From Promethearchaeota archaeon (GTDB taxonomy: Archaea > Asgardarchaeota > Lokiarchaeia > Sigynarchaeales > SOKP01), in NCBI GenBank assembly GCA_019894735.1, contig JAGXOB010000004.1:1-64000 (forward strand): a stretch of DNA of 64,000 nt. Reading direction: 5' to 3'. The notes below the pieces were generated by a model that had not been told where the DNA came from, ran no database searches, and saw only the letters and a program-made list of their open reading frames with translations. The translations under genes and the position numbers were made by a program. Of the stretch, positions 593 through 51,465 are shown one piece after another. Each line of letters starts with the position of its first letter. Position 1 is the first letter of the stretch.

Positions 593-1498
593 TTACAGAG
601 TGTTAAATGTGTTAGACTTATATCCCCAACTTTTTAGAATGTGCTCCGTATCGTTGATTAAATTATCAATAAACACTTTAATTGGTAAAATTTCGTCAAT
701 ATGGCCAATCGCCATTGATGCTATAGGTGAATCTTTTAACTCGAGATGAAATATTTTTCTGTAATACTTTTCATCAAATATATCTTGATTTAAAATCTTT
801 TGTTTCCAATTCTCTGAAGCAGGACTCTCTAAAGTAGCTACAATTGAGCTCCCTAAGCACACGGCATCTGCACCCATAGCTAGTGCTCCAAGAAAACCTC
901 TAGCATCCCCTATACCTCCCGCAGCAATTATAGGAACATTAAGCAATCTTCGTGCCATCGTAATATTTACGAGTGTGGTATTTTGAATGGGATTCTTAAA
1001 TCCAGTTCCTTCAAGGCCAACAAGAGTAATAGCATCAGCTCCCATCTTTTGAGCCGCCAAAGCGTGCTTAATGGTAACACATTTGTGGAACCAATAACAA
1101 CCTGCATCTTTAATTTTACTTCCTAACCTAGGGGTTTGATACGCAGAAGTAGTAAAAACTTTTACTCCCATATCAATTGCTAGATCTAAAAAATCATAAT
1201 AAGATTCTTCTATTCGTCCACTCCTTTTCTTCATGAGATACGGTGGTGTAATAGTAAAATTAACTCCAAAAGGTTTATCTGTTAATTTCATCATATTTTC
1301 TATTTCGTTTTGGAAAGCTTCAATTTTAGGATAATTAATTGCGGTAATAATACCTAATCCATCTGCGTTGGAAAAAGCACTAGCAAATTCTGCTCTCCCT
1401 ATTACTGCAAATGCGCCCATTATTAGTGGAATTTTAACTCCGGTCATTTGGGTTATTTTAGTTTTCCAAATCATAGAATTTTTAACCCTATCTTTCAA
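593..1498 (-). CDS. Nitronate monooxygenase / FabK-like flavin oxidoreductase
   Basis: This 301-residue protein is an FMN-binding TIM barrel of the 2-nitropropane dioxygenase (nitronate monooxygenase) and enoyl-ACP reductase II family. Visible signatures are the N-terminal KIPLIMGAFAVIG, the central GADAITLVGLEGTG, and the phosphate-binding end VPIIAAGGIGDARGFLGALAMGADAV, seen as two adjacent blocks (AAGGIGDARG, then ALAMGADAVCLGSS). Family length is usually 310-350, so it is slightly short. The catalytic histidine in true nitronate monooxygenases is not obvious in the middle block (LVGLEGTGF replaces the usual GxEAGGH), so the substrate is open. A second possible start lies eight codons in (MIWKTKITQMTG). 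It is upstream of and on the same strand as the LarA-like gene. Confidence 0.8.
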   Translation of the reverse strand: MKDRVKNSMIWKTKITQMTGVKIPLIMGAFAVIGRAEFASAFSNADGLGIITAINYPKIEAFQNEIENMMKLTDKPFGVNFTITPPYLMKKRSGRIEESYYDFLDLAIDMGVKVFTTSAYQTPRLGSKIKDAGCYWFHKCVTIKHALAAQKMGADAITLVGLEGTGFKNPIQNTTLVNITMARRLLNVPIIAAGGIGDARGFLGALAMGADAVCLGSSIVATLESPASENWKQKILNQDIFDEKYYRKIFHLELKDSPIASMAIGHIDEILPIKVFIDNLINDTEHILKSWGYKSNTFNTL

Positions 1499-31604: not shown

Positions 31605-32684
31605 ATGGACGTCATAAATATATTAGGGCTCGATATTGGAGGAGCAAATACTAAAGCTGCCTTAATCAAGTTTAAAGGCTCAGTAATTTCCGAATCGTAT
31701 TCAATTATAGAATACTTCCCATTTTGGGAAAAAACCATAATTGATATTCCTAATATGTTTAGAAGAATAAACAATAATCTTCTAGTAAAGAACCGTTTTA
31801 AATTAGAATACATTGACTTTATTTCCGTAACAATCACTGCTGAGCTCTCAGATGCATTTCAGACTAAGCGAGAAGGTCTCTCTACTATATTTAATGCGCT
31901 AGAACAAGTTTTTGAGAAAGAAAAAATGTTCTTTATCAATAACACAAATGAATTTATCAATTTTGATCAAGTTAAATCTAACCCAATTTCAGTAGCAGCA
32001 GCGAATTGGGTATCGACCTCATTATTTTTAGGTAATTTCGTTCCTAACTGCATCTTAATTGATGCAGGTTCAACTACTATTGACATTATACCTATTCTAA
32101 ATTCAAAACCTATTGCTAAGGGAAAGAACGATGTAGAAAGACTCATTAACCACGAATTAATTTATACAGGGGGTCTAAGAGCAACAATACCCTCAATCAC
32201 GCATTTTGTACCATATAAAGATAAGATGGTTAGGATTTCTTTTGAAAAGTTTGCGCTTGTCTCTGATGTTCATAGAGTGTTAAAGAACATTTCTGAAACA
32301 GAATATATTAACAATACTGCTGATAATCGCTCAAAATCTTTAAACGATTGTTACGCTCGTTTGGCTAGAGTGATATGTATGGATTTAGACTCGATTTCAT
32401 TAAAAAATTTAGATTTACTCGCACAATATATTTATGATAAACAGATTGGAATAATTTCTAATGATATTCAAGAATTCTTAAATGCCCTAACTAAACGGTT
32501 ACCCGAGTTTAACGACGACCCTATTTTTGTTCTTACAGGATTATCTGCTGATTTCCTCGTAAAAAAAGTATTACTGAAATTGGGATTTAGCAATATTTTA
32601 AATTATGAGAAGATAACAAAGATTCCTGATCATATTAGTTCTTCTGCTTTCGCTGTGGCGGGAGCTTTTTATTTTCAATTATAA
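31605..32684 (+). CDS. mfnF: Methanofuran biosynthesis protein MfnF (hydantoinase-like ATPase fold)
   Basis: This 359-residue ASKHA-type protein starts ILGLDIGGANTKAALI and carries ILIDAGSTTIDIIPI in the second phosphate loop, GELxxTGGLR-like HELIYTGGLRATIP, and ends with SSSAFAVAGAFY. This is the family long annotated as H4MPT-linked C1-transfer pathway protein and later shown to be MfnF. MfnF condenses the furan phosphate with gamma-glutamyl-tyramine in methanofuran synthesis. It is followed after 14 bases by the kinase gene of the same pathway, which strengthens the call. Confidence 0.8.
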   Translation: MDVINILGLDIGGANTKAALIKFKGSVISESYSIIEYFPFWEKTIIDIPNMFRRINNNLLVKNRFKLEYIDFISVTITAELSDAFQTKREGLSTIFNALEQVFEKEKMFFINNTNEFINFDQVKSNPISVAAANWVSTSLFLGNFVPNCILIDAGSTTIDIIPILNSKPIAKGKNDVERLINHELIYTGGLRATIPSITHFVPYKDKMVRISFEKFALVSDVHRVLKNISETEYINNTADNRSKSLNDCYARLARVICMDLDSISLKNLDLLAQYIYDKQIGIISNDIQEFLNALTKRLPEFNDDPIFVLTGLSADFLVKKVLLKLGFSNILNYEKITKIPDHISSSAFAVAGAFYFQL

Positions 32685-32698
32685 TTGGATTGCTTAAT

Positions 32699-33424
32699 AT
32701 GCAAAAAAAGCAAGCTATTTTCAAAATTGGCGGAAAAATCTTGGAAAATTCAACTAATATTGAATCTACCATATCCCAACTCACTCAGTTATATGAGGAA
32801 AAAGTTCTACAGAAAATTATTATTGTTCCTGGTGGGGGTTCATACGCAAATTTTATTAGAAGAATAGATGATGAATTAAAACTTGGAGACGACCTTAGCC
32901 ATTGGATGGCTATTTATTCTATGAACCAGAATGGAATAGAATTAAAAAGAAAATTTCCCGAATTAGAATGTATAGAAGATTTAAAAGAATTTCAAGATTC
33001 TAATAAAAATTTCTCCATCTTTTTACCATATAATTATCTCCGTAATAACGATAATCTTCCACATAATTGGGATGTTACCTCTGATTCAATTGCATATTAT
33101 GTAGCAGATCAATTACAATTTAACCAATGTTTCTTGGTTAAGGATATAGATGGAATCTATAATAGTGATGAGGAATTAATTAAAATTCTTACCACGTTCC
33201 AATATTCCAAATTAAAAGAAAGCAAGAAATTGGCTAAAATTGGACTAGACCAACCTATTTTTAAAAAATCAAAACCAATTGATTCTTATTTATTAACTTT
33301 AATTGACCAAACCGGAATTCCTTGTTACTTATTAAATGGTAGCTTTAACAGCCAAAGAATAATTGAGTTTTTTGATTCAAACATCCTTAACGAAAAGAAA
33401 ACATTTACAAAAATAATTAGATGA
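32699..33424 (+). CDS. mfnE: Methanofuran biosynthesis kinase MfnE (amino-acid-kinase family)
   Basis: This 241-residue amino-acid-kinase-fold protein has the start AIFKIGGKILEN, the phosphate loop IIVPGGGSYANFIR, HWMAIYSMNQNG, and the strongly typical LPHNWDVTSDSIAYYVA. Archaeal kinases of this group (COG2054) phosphorylate 5-(aminomethyl)furan-3-ylmethyl phosphate in methanofuran synthesis. The directly upstream mfnF fits. ATG 32699 is chosen. TTG 32690 is possible and would add three residues. The two genes point to C1 metabolism with methanofuran as carrier. Confidence 0.8.
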   Translation: MQKKQAIFKIGGKILENSTNIESTISQLTQLYEEKVLQKIIIVPGGGSYANFIRRIDDELKLGDDLSHWMAIYSMNQNGIELKRKFPELECIEDLKEFQDSNKNFSIFLPYNYLRNNDNLPHNWDVTSDSIAYYVADQLQFNQCFLVKDIDGIYNSDEELIKILTTFQYSKLKESKKLAKIGLDQPIFKKSKPIDSYLLTLIDQTGIPCYLLNGSFNSQRIIEFFDSNILNEKKTFTKIIR

Positions 33425-34746: not shown

Positions 34747-37656
34747 TTGACCTTTATAACTCTAGACCCGAAAAAAGTTGAAGATTTGATTTTAAGTGGT
34801 AGCTACGAAAAAGCAGCTGGTGAATTATTTGGAATTATTGAACAACCAGCCAATTCTGATAAAGAACTAATTTATGATACTTTAACATTATTAAACAAAA
34901 TCTGTGATAAATCTCCAGCAATTTCATTAAGAACGGTTAAAAATTTAGCCAATACGATTAATGATCTTAACTCCTGGGTTAGACTAGTGTCCTTGGAAAT
35001 TCTTTATCAAGTAACAATGTATCGTCCGAATTTACTGATTGATCTAATGCACGAGATTAGATTAAGACTATTCGATCAAGAATCCTCTATTAGACGTCTA
35101 GCTGTAAAGATTATGGGAAATCTAATTCTCTCATTGCACATCGATAAAGAGGAATTACAAAACATAATCGAAGAATTTACAGAGAAATTGATGGATAACG
35201 ACTGGAAAGTTAAGCTTCAAGTAATTAAAACGCTTAAAAAAATCTTGAATCAAGATTATACCAAAATTAAGGAATATGAACCATTATTGTCCATCGTAAT
35301 AGTAAATTTAAGAGATGAAGACGACGATGTAGCAAGATCAGCAGCAGAGCTCCTAAAAATCATTGGTACCTATTTTCTATCAAAAGAAAAAATCGCTTAT
35401 GTTCTATTAAATCTTCTTTATAATGAAAAATCGAGGGTTAAAGAGCTTATAATTTGGTTATTCGGAGAAATCGGAAAAGAGGGGAGTCCTGAAATCATTC
35501 CAATTATTCCAAAATTGATAGATCTTCTAAAAGAGAATAATTATCGAATCCAACTCCGCGTTATTGATTCTCTCGTAACTATTGCAGAGAATAATTTTGA
35601 TCAAATTTGGGCAAACCTAATTACTGCCCTATATACGGGTGACTCTGAATTCAGAAACATCGTTATTAATGCTCTATATCATCTATGTCAAAGTAATATT
35701 ATGGAAATTTTCAATTATATCTTTGAAGAATTTGAAAACCCATCAGAAAATGTCAGAGACGGAGTCGCACTCGTCTTTAAACGACTTTACGAAGAGTATC
35801 AGGTAGAAATTGAGAATGAGATCACAAAGATTTTATATATACTAGAATCTAAATATTGGCGCGAAAGAAAAAAAACTATAATTCTCCTAAGAAACATTTG
35901 CTTTATATTAGAGAGCAAAAAAGTTGCAGTCTGGATTTTTATTGAATTGGAGAAAAATTTGAGAATTGAAAATGATCCAGATGTCAGTGAAGAAATCATC
36001 TATACTATAAAGAATATTAAAGCAAATTTTCAAGATATTGATGAAATCATTCAGGATGTCAACGAAGATCTAAGTATATTTCTTAAAAAAATCCAAGAAT
36101 TCCAAAAAATACCTGCTCAATTTCGAGAAAAAATGAATTTATACATAAAAGAATTCAAATTTCATCAAACTGAAATAGAACTAGATAAGATTTATCGAAA
36201 AATACTAAATAAAATAAAGAAATTCAATAAAAGATTAAATAAGTTCGAGTACAAACGGTTAGCTTTTAATTTGATAGAGGATTGGGAAGAAACTAAAATC
36301 ACGATAATGGACGAACTCAGCATTATTAAGGCGTTCATTTCAGAAGTGTTTGAAGAGAAGAAGGAAGAATTCACTTTAAATTTAAAATCAAAAATTAAGC
36401 TTTTAGAAGATCGTATTAGTATATTGAAAGCTCAGTATGAAGATATACAGGAATATAATTTTCTTGGTCATTTAGATGATTTAATAATAGATAAAGTTGA
36501 GGACAAAGAACTTGAGGAGAAATTCACCCAAATTACGCAATTAAGAAACTATATGTTTAAACTGGATGATGATATTCGTGAAGTGTTAGTAACAAATGTA
36601 GAATTTAACGAGGTTTTTAAAACACTTCTAAGTAAATGGGTTGGGTTCAAAATTGAACTTCAGGAATTTCTAAGCGATTTAGACAGGAAAATAAAATCTA
36701 CAAAAGACAGATTAGTGAACGAAATTCAACGCTCTGACGGTACTGATGATACTCAGAAATTAAATCTACTGTCTTCAATATTATTTCAGGGTCATATTCA
36801 ATCAATTATTACACAAGGACTAGAAGGTCTTAAAAGATTTAACGATAATTTAGATAATCTGAAATCAAAATTAGAGACATTACTAAAGAAAAGCGAGTTC
36901 TCAGATGCTAGAAAGCTTATAGAGATGAACACTAATCAAATTCAAAATTACATTGAAGATTATGAAAATCAAATTGACAACCTCATTGGAAAAGTAACTG
37001 AAGACAACGATGTGTTTAATCTTTTTGCGAGACCGTCAGTTACAAAATTTGTATCATTTAAGGAGGTTCTGATCAATAAGCTAAAGGTATTCAACCAGAA
37101 AAGTAACGACGAGCTTATTTTGAGTCAAATCAAGTATTATCTTGATGTCATCAACCCTATTAAATTAGAAAGTCTCGCTTCGTATATTGACATGGATATT
37201 AACCTTTTGAAAGAAAGAGTTGTAAATTTCGTAAATAAGAATAAACTCAGTGCACGAATTATAAAAGATGAACTCTATTCTCCTAAAAGAGAAGATATTA
37301 TTGAACCAAGGGATATTTTATTTTTCAAAAACATAAAAACTATCGGAAATAAGTTGTATTTCAACTTTAAACTAAACAATCCAACAAATCTACTATTTTC
37401 AGATTTACAGATCTCTCTCAAAATTCCGGAATACCTAACCTTTATTCCTAACGAAAGTTTTCCTAAATATCTCTATCTTAAAGAATTAAAGCCGGGAAAT
37501 GTGTTTAAATTTAACTATGTTTTAAAACTAAAACATAATATTGAAAAAAATCTATCCGATCCTTCTGTTGACGAAGTAAACCTTAACATTTACTATAAGG
37601 ATCCCTTCGACATGACTCGTAAAATAACAAAGAAGATTTCCCTGCTTTTACCATAA
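34747..37656 (+). CDS. HEAT-repeat, coiled-coil and beta-sandwich protein with adaptin-like layout
   Basis: At 969 residues this is the largest protein in the window. Residues 25-400 are HEAT/Armadillo repeats (for example LRDEDDDVARSAAELLKIIG and IEEFTEKLMDNDWKVKLQV). Residues 440-800 are long helices and coiled coil. About 835-885 looks like a winged-helix or PCI-type end (YIDMDINLLKERVVNFVNKN). The last 80 residues are a beta sandwich (FNFKLNNPTNLLFSDLQISL). The order HEAT trunk, hinge, ear-like sandwich recalls adaptor and coat subunits. That similarity is architectural only. The start is TTG 34747, and it stands alone. Confidence 0.65.
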   Translation: MTFITLDPKKVEDLILSGSYEKAAGELFGIIEQPANSDKELIYDTLTLLNKICDKSPAISLRTVKNLANTINDLNSWVRLVSLEILYQVTMYRPNLLIDLMHEIRLRLFDQESSIRRLAVKIMGNLILSLHIDKEELQNIIEEFTEKLMDNDWKVKLQVIKTLKKILNQDYTKIKEYEPLLSIVIVNLRDEDDDVARSAAELLKIIGTYFLSKEKIAYVLLNLLYNEKSRVKELIIWLFGEIGKEGSPEIIPIIPKLIDLLKENNYRIQLRVIDSLVTIAENNFDQIWANLITALYTGDSEFRNIVINALYHLCQSNIMEIFNYIFEEFENPSENVRDGVALVFKRLYEEYQVEIENEITKILYILESKYWRERKKTIILLRNICFILESKKVAVWIFIELEKNLRIENDPDVSEEIIYTIKNIKANFQDIDEIIQDVNEDLSIFLKKIQEFQKIPAQFREKMNLYIKEFKFHQTEIELDKIYRKILNKIKKFNKRLNKFEYKRLAFNLIEDWEETKITIMDELSIIKAFISEVFEEKKEEFTLNLKSKIKLLEDRISILKAQYEDIQEYNFLGHLDDLIIDKVEDKELEEKFTQITQLRNYMFKLDDDIREVLVTNVEFNEVFKTLLSKWVGFKIELQEFLSDLDRKIKSTKDRLVNEIQRSDGTDDTQKLNLLSSILFQGHIQSIITQGLEGLKRFNDNLDNLKSKLETLLKKSEFSDARKLIEMNTNQIQNYIEDYENQIDNLIGKVTEDNDVFNLFARPSVTKFVSFKEVLINKLKVFNQKSNDELILSQIKYYLDVINPIKLESLASYIDMDINLLKERVVNFVNKNKLSARIIKDELYSPKREDIIEPRDILFFKNIKTIGNKLYFNFKLNNPTNLLFSDLQISLKIPEYLTFIPNESFPKYLYLKELKPGNVFKFNYVLKLKHNIEKNLSDPSVDEVNLNIYYKDPFDMTRKITKKISLLLP

Positions 37657-37706
37657 TATTTTATTCAATTTTTTGTCATAGTCAATAACAAAAAACGCTT
37701 ATTTAT

Positions 37707-37730
37707 CGAAAAAATAAATAATTTAAAACG
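37707..37730 (+). promoter_or_regulatory. Possible promoter of the first selD gene
   Basis: CGAAAAAATAAATAATTTAAAACG contains a BRE-like purine stretch and two overlapping TATA-like cores. Transcription would start near 37750, giving a leader of about 55 bases before ATG 37810. The assignment is weaker than for the second selD gene. Confidence 0.35.
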
Positions 37731-37809
37731 AAAATATTAATATTACCTTTGAATCTTTAAATTTACAATTAACTAAGGAAATAAAAAATAGATATAATTC
37801 GTGAGGTGA

Positions 37810-38847
37810 ATGTTACCAGAAGAAGAGAGTTATCGACTAACGCTCCAAACGAAATTATTCGGATGAAACTGTAAACTCGATTCCAAAAAATTAGACACGC
37901 TTTTGGCTAATGCTGGGTTGAAGGGGGATATCGAAGATGCTGCCATAATACCGGTTCCAAACACTGACATGGTAATAGTAAAAAACATTGACATCTTTAC
38001 ACCAATTATCGATGAACCAGAAATAATGGGCGAAATAGCCGCAGCTAATGTAACTAACGATGTTTTCGCGTTAAATGTCCCAGAAATCTCAGGCATGCTT
38101 GTATTTCTCGGGATGAAAAAAAACATGCCTATGCATGTCGCAGAAGGAATATTGTTAGGTATTAGAAACTTTATCGAAAATAAAATTGATTCGAAAGTAC
38201 TTGGAGGTCATACGATCTACTCAGAATGGCCTCTTATTGGCGGGGAAGCTTCTGGATTTCTCCATAAAGACAAAGTAATTAAAAAGAACGACGTGAAAGA
38301 GGGGGATGTCTTAATAGTGACCAAACCTGTTGGAAATCAAGCTATCATGGCTGCTTACCGATTACAGAAAAATAACCCTGACCTCTTGAAGGCTTTTTCT
38401 AAAGAAGATATTGATGAATCAATAGATTTAGCCATAGAATATATGACTATGCCGCTTCAAAGCGTTGTAAAAGCTATCCATTCTTATGAAGATATGTCTT
38501 TCGTGCATTCAATGACAGATGTTTCTGGATTTGGATTAGCTGGGCATTTGAAGGAGATGCTTCAAAATTCAGATCTATCCGCGATTATCAAGAAGGTTCC
38601 TATATTTAAACTTACAAAGGAACTAGCGAATGAATTTGGATACAAATTTGACGAATGTGAAATGCCTGAAACCGCGGGTGGAATGCTACTTTCTGTGGAT
38701 CGTGACCATGCTGCAGAGTTCTCAGAACGACTCAAGAACGAGTTTCACGTGTCTAATTGGATAATCGGAGAAATCGATAACATAAATAAACCCAGACATG
38801 TTCGCGTTTCAAAAAATGTCGAATATGTCGAAATAACTGAAATATAA
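37810..38847 (+). CDS. selD: Selenophosphate synthetase, selenocysteine-containing (copy 1)
   Basis: This 345-residue protein reads through an in-frame TGA at 37864-37866 (codon 19). The context is F-G-U-N-C-K, equivalent to the GCGCK active site of E. coli SelD (Cys17, Cys19, Lys20), so the TGA replaces the catalytic cysteine. Downstream blocks are standard: IEDAAIIPV, TNDVFALN, VLGGHTIYSEWPLIGGEASG, VTKPVGNQA, MTDVSGFGLAGHLKEM and PETAGGML. SelD uses ATP and selenide to make selenophosphate for Sec-tRNA. The ATG at 37810 follows a GAGGTGA ribosome-binding site that is repeated before the second copy. A SECIS element begins at the base after the stop codon. Confidence 0.93.
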
Positions 38848-38918
38848 CGATGTTAATGATGTAGACTAAAACACTATAAGTGAATGTCTATTGAAAATCC
38901 CGTTGCTCAACGGCATCG
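38848..38918 (+). promoter_or_regulatory. SECIS element of selD copy 1
   Basis: Closing stem: CGATG (38848-38852) pairs with CATCG (38914-38918). Core: ATGA at 38856-38859 lies opposite GA at 38893-38894, a kink-turn with sheared G-A pairs. Upper stem: GTAGAC (38861-38866) pairs with GTCTAT (38886-38891). The apical part has four unpaired A bases (38868-38871) and a CACT/AGTG mini-hairpin. On the 3' side an extra hairpin, CCGTT-GCTC-AACGG (38900-38913), makes a three-way junction. Archaeal SECIS elements sit in the 3' UTR and direct UGA decoding as selenocysteine. Confidence 0.85.
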
Positions 38919-39229
38919 AAGATTGAAACCCTATTTTTCTATATTATTATTTTGTATTTTTTGTTTTATGCAAATTTTTTCGTTTCCACTCTTTTAAGTA
39001 CCAATTCATGAAGTTATTTGTAACTCCTAAAGAATTTTTTTTTTGATTTTGGAAATCATCTATTTTTTTCTGCTTTTCACGGAAAGTAAACATATAACGA
39101 GATTGACTAAGATTTACTTAGTTAAACTCAAAATCAAACCGCATTTATAAAGTGATGTAGCACAAGAATACTACATTTCAACCTAAGTTGTCGATCTTAA
39201 TACTTATCGAAAATAATAATAAATATAAT
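38919..39229. other. Intergenic region between the two selD genes
   Basis: About 310 bases hold no gene I can support. The left end is T-rich (near 38931-38965) and would end transcription of the first selD. A weak palindromic stretch lies at 39036-39090. The right end leads into a clear promoter. So the two selD genes seem to be separate transcription units. Confidence 0.5.
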
Positions 39230-39246
39230 CGAAAATTTAAATAAAC
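39230..39246 (+). promoter_or_regulatory. BRE/TATA promoter of the second selD gene
   Basis: CGAAAATTTAAATAAAC is a near-consensus archaeal BRE plus TATA box. Transcription would start near 39270, about 40 bases before ATG 39312. The match is closer to consensus than that of copy 1, suggesting independent control. Confidence 0.6.
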
Positions 39247-39311
39247 ATTAATTCATATCAAAATCCTAGTAGAATTAAATAAAAACGAATTCCCCAAAAA
39301 GTGTGAGGTGA

Positions 39312-40343
39312 ATGACAGAAGAAAAAAAGGAATATCGATTGACAAAGCAAGTTAAAATCTACGGATGATCATGTAAACTCGGTGCAAACCAATTAGACGA
39401 ATTACTGGAGAAAACTGGGTTAGGAGGATTCATTGAAGATGCTGCTATTGTACCCGTCCCTAATTCTGACATGGTTCTAGTAAAGAATATAGATATTTTT
39501 ACTCCACTTATAGATGAACCAGAAATTATGGGCGAAATCGCTGCGTGTAATGTAACAAATGATGTTTTTGCTATGAATGTCCCAGAAATTTCAGGAATGC
39601 TCGTATTTCTCGCTATCAATAAGAACACTCCAATGTATATAGCAGAAGGAATCCTTAAGGGAATTAAAAACTTTATGGAACAAAAAATTAATTCCAAAAT
39701 AGTAGGAGGGCACACGATATATAGCGCATGGCCCCTTATTGGTGGAGAAGCGTCTGGTTTTGTAAATAAAAACAATCTAATCCGGAAGCAAGGAGTGAAA
39801 AAAGGCGATAAGTTAATCTTAACAAAACCTATCGGACTACAAGCAATTATGGCTGCGTATAGGTTACAGAAAGATTCTCCTGAAATGTTAGAAGAATTCT
39901 CCTCTAATGAGATAAACAAATCAATACAATTAGCTATTAAACTGATGACTACCTCCAATCAAGGAGTAGTAAAAACCATTTACTCATACAAAGATTTCTC
40001 GTTTATTCACACCATGACTGATGTGACGGGCTTCGGATTGGCTGGTCATTTGAAAGAAATGCTACAAAACTCTGCGTTATCGGCCGTTATTGATATCATT
40101 CCTTCAATAAAACACTCAAAAATCCTTTCTGAAGAATATGGATACCCCTTGAACGAAGGCCTGTGTTCTGAAACGGCGGGGGGCATGCTTATTGCTCTCG
40201 ACTCGAGTAAGGTAGAAGACTTTTCCAACGCGCTCCTTAGTCAAGGCATTTCTAATTGGGTTGTAGGGTCTATAGATAGGAAAAAACCTGAACTTGTTAG
40301 AATATCGAAAGAAGTAAAGTATCTTGAAATAGATAAAGTATAA
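39312..40343 (+). CDS. selD: Selenophosphate synthetase, selenocysteine-containing (copy 2)
   Basis: This 343-residue second SelD also has an in-frame TGA as codon 19 (39366-39368), in Y-G-U-S-C-K. Sec, Cys and Lys keep the same spacing as in copy 1. Other blocks include FIEDAAIVPVPNSDMVLV, IVGGHTIYSAWPLIGGEASG, MTDVTGFGLAGHLKEM and SETAGGML. The two copies are clearly paralogous along the whole length but have diverged at many positions, so the duplication is not recent. The ribosome-binding context (GAGGTGAATG) is the same as in copy 1, and a matching SECIS follows the stop without any gap. Confidence 0.93.
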
Positions 40344-40413
40344 TGACGTCAATGAAATAAGTTAAAACACGGAAGTGGGGACTTATTGAGAAACCCGTTG
40401 CTCAACGGCGTCA
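40344..40413 (+). promoter_or_regulatory. SECIS element of selD copy 2
   Basis: Closing stem: TGACG (40344-40348) pairs with CGTCA (40409-40413). Core: ATGA (40352-40355) lies opposite GA (40388-40389). Upper stem: AATAAGT (40356-40362) pairs perfectly with ACTTATT (40381-40387). Four unpaired A bases (40364-40367) precede a CAC/GTG mini-hairpin with a GGAA loop. The extra hairpin CCGTT-GCTC-AACGG (40395-40408) is identical in sequence to that of copy 1, although the stems around it differ by compensating changes. Confidence 0.87.
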
Positions 40414-51281: not shown

Positions 51282-51385
51282 GGGGGCGTGGCGAAGCTCG
51301 GTATAACTTTGCCCATTCGGTTCAAAGTGCTGATCGCGGCAGGCTCCAGACTTGTTGGTCACCGGTTCAAATCCGGTCGCTCCCA
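51282..51385 (+). tRNA. tRNA-Trp (CCA) with an insertion, probably an intron, in the D-arm
   Basis: Acceptor GGGGGCG (51282-51288) pairs with CGCTCCC (51378-51384), with A as discriminator. T-arm is ACCGG-TTCAAAT-CCGGT (51361-51377). Anticodon stem GCAGG/CTTGT flanks loop CTCCAGA, with anticodon CCA at 51346-51348. The D-stem GCGA (51291-51294) pairs with TCGC (51334-51337), leaving a 39-base D-loop, about 30 too many. The extra part holds its own stem (ACTTTG/CAAAGT). An alternative D-stem (GCGAAG/CTTTGC) would place the insert just after the D-arm. I cannot fix the splice sites. CCA is not encoded. Confidence 0.85.
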
Positions 51386-51465
51386 CTTTTTTTCAATTCG
51401 TAACTACATTTTTAAAAATTTCTTCTTAAGTAAGCAAAAGATATCCTCTAAGTGATATGATTGTA

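Follow-up and report, generated by a model that had tools for sequence, protein, structure and literature searches.

Why should an archaeon keep two adjacent genes for one and the same step of selenium metabolism, when each encoded enzyme is itself a predicted selenoprotein that would need the product of its own pathway, and why is one such gene insufficient? The question is raised by a conserved pair of selenophosphate synthetase (selD) genes, both with an in-frame TGA predicted to be read as selenocysteine (Sec), in a window of 64,000 nucleotides (the whole stretch of DNA analysed) from a member of the Lokiarchaeia. Multiple Sec-encoding selD genes are already known in this group. Huang et al. 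(2024, PMC11227280) report two or more selD genes in 51 Loki- and Thorarchaeia, describe eukaryote-like SECIS elements after selD, mainly of type II and modelled as two stems and one apical hairpin, and suggest a more active role or a new function for multiple SelD. The window resembles the multi-selD organisms of that study in having Sec-SelD in several copies and type II-like SECIS elements. Unlike what its main text describes, from which the words 'tandem', 'adjacent' and 'hairpin' are absent, we find a fixed order of the two copies (A, then B), an A clade, residues particular to A, a reductase gene in the locus and a second SECIS hairpin. A search for published work on a tandem selD pair gave none by title or opening of the abstract. 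As far as the literature covered goes, the fixed order, the A clade, the reductase in six selD loci and the covarying second hairpin are new; the pair itself is partly in print, and its interest is raised by the diverged clade, the reductase and the hairpin.

The two genes lie on the same strand, separated by 464 bases, each directly behind a Shine-Dalgarno-like motif:

37803-37809, + strand: Shine-Dalgarno-like GAGGTGA, abutting the start codon of A
37810-38847, + strand: selD copy A, 345 amino acids, then TAA; Sec codon TGA at 37864-37866 (motif GUNCK)
39305-39311, + strand: Shine-Dalgarno-like GAGGTGA, abutting the start codon of B
39312-40343, + strand: selD copy B, 343 amino acids, then TAA; Sec codon TGA at 39366-39368 (motif GUSCK)

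In both genes TGA is codon 19 and the frame stays open across it. The two proteins are 62% identical, contain AIRS and AIRS_C domains, and pass the TIGR00476 model for selD (NCBIfam; 184.4 bits for A and 198.1 for B, cut-off 125); NF010705 also matches them, at 265.9 and 276.9 bits, below its cut-off of 291. AlphaFold2 models reach a mean pLDDT of 89.8 (A) and 89.2 (B), with low confidence in the Sec loop (residues 16-23 or 16-25), and a structure search with the A model returned human SPS1 (3fd5, TM 0.87) as the best PDB match. Both genes have GAGGTG ahead of the chosen start in 28 of the 29 pairs listed; in L052 the A copy does not. Positions 19, 21, 22, 43, 61, 84 and 237, which we take to be catalytic or metal-binding in SelD and to include the four Asp of the nucleotide/metal site, are unchanged in both copies. 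A and B are SelD proteins with a predicted Sec in the active site; both probably make selenophosphate, and Sec is probably inserted in both. The initial annotation had described two intact selD genes with TGA as codon 19 in G-U-x-C-K, each with a SECIS right after its stop, keeping all family motifs and differing at many positions; every part of this description stands.

Its view that such a tandem is unusual did not survive a search of selD neighbourhoods in Asgard genomes, in which the pair recurs. Of the 83 Lokiarchaeia genomes searched, SelD is matched in 73 (E <= 1e-20), and 30 carry at least two copies. In 28 of these 30, two copies lie next to each other on the same contig and strand, and in the remaining two (G009, G073) they lie on separate contigs; the 51 multi-selD organisms in print (PMC11227280) point the same way. 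All 29 pairs measured, the window included, have the order A then B, with a gap of 213-602 bases in 25 pairs and 1682-1884 in four. A scan of GTDB contigs gave 13 Lokiarchaeial loci, eight of which have A and B side by side according to tblastn; in one of the eight (L002) the B copy is cut by the contig end. Across 227 Asgard genomes, 126 have a SelD match (E <= 1e-25), and outside the Lokiarchaeia class set two matches occur only in G184. Some single copies may be pairs short of one copy, genome completeness not being given. The tandem is typical for this group and normal for a large part of the Lokiarchaeia. Misassembly, which the initial annotation had named as a finding that would overturn its account, or a mixture of strains can be given practically no weight as the origin of the pair: the named relatives are metagenome assemblies, and G012 has three SelD matches over two contigs, but the copies in the window are only 62% identical and so are not a single gene assembled twice, and the same order recurs in other genomes, including two tandem cases on contigs of 3.34 and 2.27 Mb.

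The age of the pair was addressed with a tree of 100 SelD proteins, which excludes rows shorter than 300 residues or lacking a motif call. The 30 A copies form one clade with support of 100/100 within Lokiarchaeial SelD, which indicates that they go back to one duplication; outside it, 28 B copies are intermixed with 29 single or unpaired ones. Of the two old clades that the initial annotation had envisaged, A is one, and B, mixed with single copies, is not a clade. AU tests of an origin of A inside one lineage versus an earlier origin with later losses gave p values of 0.138 and 0.07, for two groupings chosen after the tree was seen. One genome, G070 (locus L099), carries an A-type SECIS (positions 1335-1415, minus strand) upstream of its B copy and about 70 bases past the end of a gene whose product is similar at its end to that of the gene preceding A in the window (34747-37656). 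An A coding sequence was looked for at that locus and not found. This looks like a loss of A that left its SECIS behind, the alternative being an assembly error there.

Across relatives, the Sec codon is kept without exception. We read 106 SelD genes or fragments, from 76 fetched loci and the window, and all 104 with a motif read have TGA at the Sec site (GUSCK in 71, GUNCK in 30, GUACK in two and GUDCK in one). The two without a motif call are a fragment missing its start and a frame with a long upstream extension, in which GUSCK is visible by eye. The seven positions named above are invariant in 30 of 30 A copies, 57 of 57 B or single copies and 13 of 13 distant copies; among the other positions tabulated, K172 is N in one A copy. 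SecS scores above cut-off in 77 of the 83 Lokiarchaeia genomes, and selenouridine synthase (TIGR03167), considered as a second user of selenophosphate, was found in none of ten Lokiarchaeial genomes tried with a search that was positive in E. coli and M. jannaschii. Full-length database SelD records among P0001-P0120 show Trp at the Sec site (for example KIYGWSCK), and many other records begin past the TGA. Both features are most likely gene-calling artefacts, with TGA misread as Trp, and such records were therefore not counted as variants.

Against this constant background, A has diverged in a specific manner. Five states, all different from those of B and single copies and of nearly all 13 distant copies, are fixed or nearly so in A: S20N, beside Sec, C79A, N216L, A234S and T239S. 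Position 20 is N in 29 of 30 A copies and S in 57/57 B or single and 12/13 distant copies; position 216 is L in all 30 A copies and N in 55/57 and 12/13; position 234 is S in all 30 and A in 52/57 and 11/13; and position 239 is S in all 30 and T in 54/57 and 13/13. In sequence, Ser-234 and Ser-239 of A flank the metal-binding Asp-237. SelD of Leishmania and Aquifex align Asn at 216; in the human protein Met is aligned with this position, and an Asn follows four residues later. A also differs from B and single copies at positions 14, 16, 44 and 88, but there its state occurs in three to six distant copies, which leaves the direction of change open. Pairwise dN/dS has a median of 0.082 among A copies (118 pairs) and of 0.126 among B and single copies (204 pairs), and the ratio is lower in A in 42 of 63 matched pairs; in both comparisons pairs share branches and are not independent. 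These ratios indicate purifying selection on both copies, with a constraint on A at least as strong as on B and single copies. The pattern fits adjustment of the active site in a paralogue better than decay of a copy, and the pair offers a natural comparison for the role of residues near Sec in SelD.

A further feature lies in the neighbourhood. In four genomes (G003, G007, G050, G072) the long A-B gap is occupied by a single gene, about 430 codons long and read in the same direction. The copy at L048 scores 466 bits against NF040772, the family of double-cubane-cluster-containing anaerobic reductases (cut-off 350), and the other three score 453-462 bits. In G009 and G012 a homologue immediately precedes a B-type selD on a contig that carries no A copy. 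The loci are as follows:

L048, L053, L068 and L069; also L046 and L062: reductase gene between A and B or before a B-type selD

NF040772 is found above cut-off in 18 of the 83 genomes, six with A and twelve without. The gene lies in the selD locus in all six with A; of the twelve, ten have it on a contig other than that of selD, which means that the reductase does not track A generally, and two are without a SelD match. It is absent above cut-off from 24 of the 30 multi-copy genomes, and none was found near selD in the window. The reductase might supply selenium to SelD. A table of STRING links in Lin et al. (2015, PMC5322559) connects 2-hydroxyglutaryl-CoA-dehydratase-like genes with selenium genes in Slackia; the same superfamily is tied to selenium genes there, but unlike in those bacterial clusters, as that table presents them, the NF040772 gene lies here between two archaeal selD genes. 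At L053 the A copy groups in the tree with those of L051 and L055, and the B copy, beside the reductase gene, with those of L048 and L062; the reductase-B unit of this locus may have been exchanged between lineages. Elsewhere in the window, positions 31605-33424 hold two neighbouring genes that NCBIfam relates to MfnF and MfnE of methanofuran synthesis, both under those cut-offs; the first of them is above the TIGR03123 cut-off.

Each of the two genes is also preceded by a similar upstream element:

37703-37742, + strand: promoter-like element before A, with TTATCGAAA at 37703-37711 and CGAAAATATTAATA at 37729-37742
39204-39244, + strand: promoter-like element before B, with TTATCGAAA at 39204-39212 and CGAAAATTTAAATAA at 39230-39244

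Before both genes TTATCGAAA is followed 17 bases on by CGAAAA and an A/T-rich box. The window contains seven TTATCGAAA sites versus 2.46 expected, and only those before A and B lie between listed open reading frames. The element before A recurs, altered in some cases, in all 16 loci aligned (16 of the 29 pairs). Within 160 bases upstream, TATCGA is present in 19 of 31 A copies, 20 of 29 paired B copies, 8 of 28 other B-type copies and 1 of 14 distant starts, versus 15, 9, 7 and 2, respectively, in a 160-base coding control; since the control holds it in 15 A copies, the upstream count for A shows little. The shared element, which resembles the archaeal promoter consensus, is possibly a promoter or operator. 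Separate promoters for A and B, as the initial annotation had them, and with them separate transcription, are plausible from this arrangement; the two genes may also be co-transcribed, above all in loci with a short gap.

The reading of the pair that we favour, with some confidence, is that of two active enzymes that divide the work. Both genes would make selenophosphate synthetase with a catalytic Sec, put in at UGA-19 and directed by the SECIS right after each stop. B would represent the type also present in single-copy relatives, and A a diverged paralogue with altered active-site surroundings (N or D at position 20, next to Sec; Ser at 234 and 239, on the two sides of Asp-237; Leu for Asn-216) that would most likely be suited to another selenium donor, redox state or level of selenium. 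The sequences themselves show that the frames are intact, that catalytic residues are conserved, that selection is purifying, that the SECIS covary and that the A clade has a single origin; that Sec is really inserted, that both enzymes are active and that division of work is what keeps the pair is what we infer from them. Different selenium sources or conditions would be the most likely reason for the retention of both copies. The initial annotation had likewise proposed specialisation of this kind: specialisation itself is likely, with some support from the A-specific residues near the active site and from the reductase in six selD loci, and the particular conditions or sources are still a guess.

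An increase in dosage, with A and B functionally equivalent and simply providing more SelD to organisms with many selenoproteins, seems to us unlikely. Sec and the seven positions are kept in both copies, each copy has its own SECIS and a similar upstream element, and large selenoproteomes are described in Lokiarchaeia (PMC11227280), all of which such a role would accommodate. However, copies kept for dosage alone should drift or be homogenised, whereas A and B have been apart ever since the base of the A clade, and A has fixed states of its own near the active site. Animals suggest another possibility. As far as the sections covered of Mariotti et al. (2015, PMC4561486) go, the Sec position of animal SPS1 is taken by Thr, Gly, Leu or Arg, or by a read-through UGA; in mammals a second, Sec-keeping SPS2 arose by retrotransposition, and nonplacental mammals keep both, almost identical. 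As with animal SPS1 and SPS2, a Sec-SelD was duplicated and one copy then diverged; unlike the animal paralogues, the Lokiarchaeial copies are old, strongly diverged, adjacent and both endowed with Sec. By analogy with non-Sec SPS1, A could be without synthetase activity and act as a regulator or heterodimer partner of B, a role that we regard as quite improbable. Without the nearly universal Asn-216, retained in most B and single copies and in the Leishmania and Aquifex alignments, A might be a poor synthetase, and the SPS duplications of animals led to subfunctionalisation (PMC4561486). Yet where animal SPS1 has other residues or read-through at the Sec site, every A motif read keeps TGA, which speaks for chemistry of selenium or of redox type at this position, and A is constrained at least as strongly as B and single copies. 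A division of work between two Sec enzymes remains the reading that we prefer.

Insertion of Sec in either copy would depend on the RNA element behind it, and here the two genes again agree:

38848-38918, + strand: SECIS of A, beginning directly 3' of the stop; basal stem 38848-38852/38914-38918
38856-38859 (AUGA), 38893-38894 (GA) and 38900-38913 (stem III), + strand: core and third hairpin of the SECIS of A
40344-40413, + strand: SECIS of B, directly 3' of the stop; AUGA 40352-40355, GA 40388-40389, stem III 40395-40408, and a basal stem

A covariance model of 79 selD 3' regions, the window's two included, finds these sites with E values of 5e-19 (A) and 2e-19 (B); the next two matches in the window have E values of 0.38 and 0.89. 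The alignment comprises 30 A, 24 B and 25 single or unpaired copies, and leaves out all 14 distant copies and five B or single copies with an element of another shape. Elements of another shape, with a different basal stem, no distinct mini-stem and a likeness to the vhuD type, are seen at L068 and L073 (B copies), L080, L082 and L087. Across the 83 genomes the selD model (R1) gave 82 matches, 79 of them directly after a SelD match and one at the A-type SECIS of G070; the two others are weak and not SECIS-like. Rfam gave three matches in the window, all below gathering score and none at selD. A tmRNA match at 51282-51388 (Rfam, E 0.00067) was rejected, as ARAGORN gave no tRNA or tmRNA.

Four helices are aligned: a basal stem, an upper stem with the AUGA/GA core, a mini-stem and, between core and basal stem, an additional hairpin (stem III). 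Paired cells amount to 94.4% with this structure and to at most 53.5% in slid controls. Both sides have changed in 18 of 20 pairs, versus 8.2 in shuffles, and covariation is 0.306 versus 0.159 shuffled, with none of 500 shuffles as high, the shuffles ignoring relatedness. In stem III all five pairs have changed on both sides, and RNAalifold without a preset structure returned the same four helices with small pair shifts. When stem III arms were exchanged among 30 distinct pairs, 131 of 150 positions matched with their own partner versus 105.9 with exchanged ones, the best of 10,000 shuffles reaching 119, relatedness again ignored. Folding of single sequences against 200 shuffles gave a weak signal (z -1.65 for A, with 13/200 as good, and z -1.92 for B, with 7/200), and stem III is absent from the minimum-energy fold of B alone. 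The covariation supports stem III as a third helix that would make the element a three-way junction.

These elements are like eukaryotic type II SECIS in their AUGA/GA core, unpaired A's and mini-stem above the bulge, and unlike them in the covarying hairpin between core and basal stem. We know of no eukaryotic type II SECIS with such an extra hairpin. Both elements have the type II features given in PMC11227280, namely the AUGA/GA core, an upper stem of 7-15 bp with <=2 mismatches, a mini-stem of 2-8 bp and an apical loop of 2-6 nt; in A a U-U pair adjoins the core. The third helix, recognised by covariation, departs from an element of only two stems and one apical hairpin, and the model in that paper, as far as its text covered here goes, gives key regions and excludes none. 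A review (PMC9499178) likewise presents the Lokiarchaeial SECIS with one apical loop. The literature covered on the SECIS of Lokiarchaeota, a set without Mariotti 2016, gave no description of a second hairpin, and 'three-way junction' in connection with SECIS elements was found only in the title of a cited reference. A second hairpin would alter the structural picture of an RNA signal held to be intermediate between the archaeal and eukaryotic systems, and would provide a testable site for the missing SECIS-binding factor of Asgard archaea. When placed in M. maripaludis, a Lokiarchaeial SECIS did not function (PMC11881835). One may speculate, with more doubt than conviction, that the Lokiarchaeial SECIS are three-way junctions in which a hairpin with a GNRA-like or UGCAA-type loop by the kink-turn core is a binding site replacing the role of SBP2, and that in one Lokiarchaeial lineage the ancient duplicate A became a dedicated acceptor for selenium from a low-potential reductase (the double-cubane protein, whose gene some relatives have between A and B), with A and B as two selenium entry points into one pathway.

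That the extra hairpin is peculiar to selD was considered and dropped, as vhuD-type elements have a hairpin there too. In a first check of vhuD with a pattern of our own, 11 of 16 loci had a SECIS-like core where the gene ends, and the other five had none or a distant one. MAFFT misaligned three of the 11 elements, and the vhuD-type model (R2) was therefore built on eight, with the upper stem only as its structure; it has matches in 66 of the 83 genomes. Forty elements (L228-L267) picked among the better-scoring R2 matches were examined, and a script found the SECIS core in 39, the last having AA for GA. The 30 bases past the core have a mean hairpin score of 6.13 versus 4.70 when shuffled (highest of 200 rounds 5.16), the shuffles preserving letter composition only and the best-scored hairpin not always being the folded one. 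Lowest-energy folds have at least three pairs inside this stretch in 35 of 39 elements, which is weak evidence because shuffled letters average 26.4 (maximum 31 in 20 rounds). The vhuD-type SECIS also seem to carry a hairpin in the stretch from the core GA to the basal stem, and GCAA, GCGA or AGC is often part of its loop.
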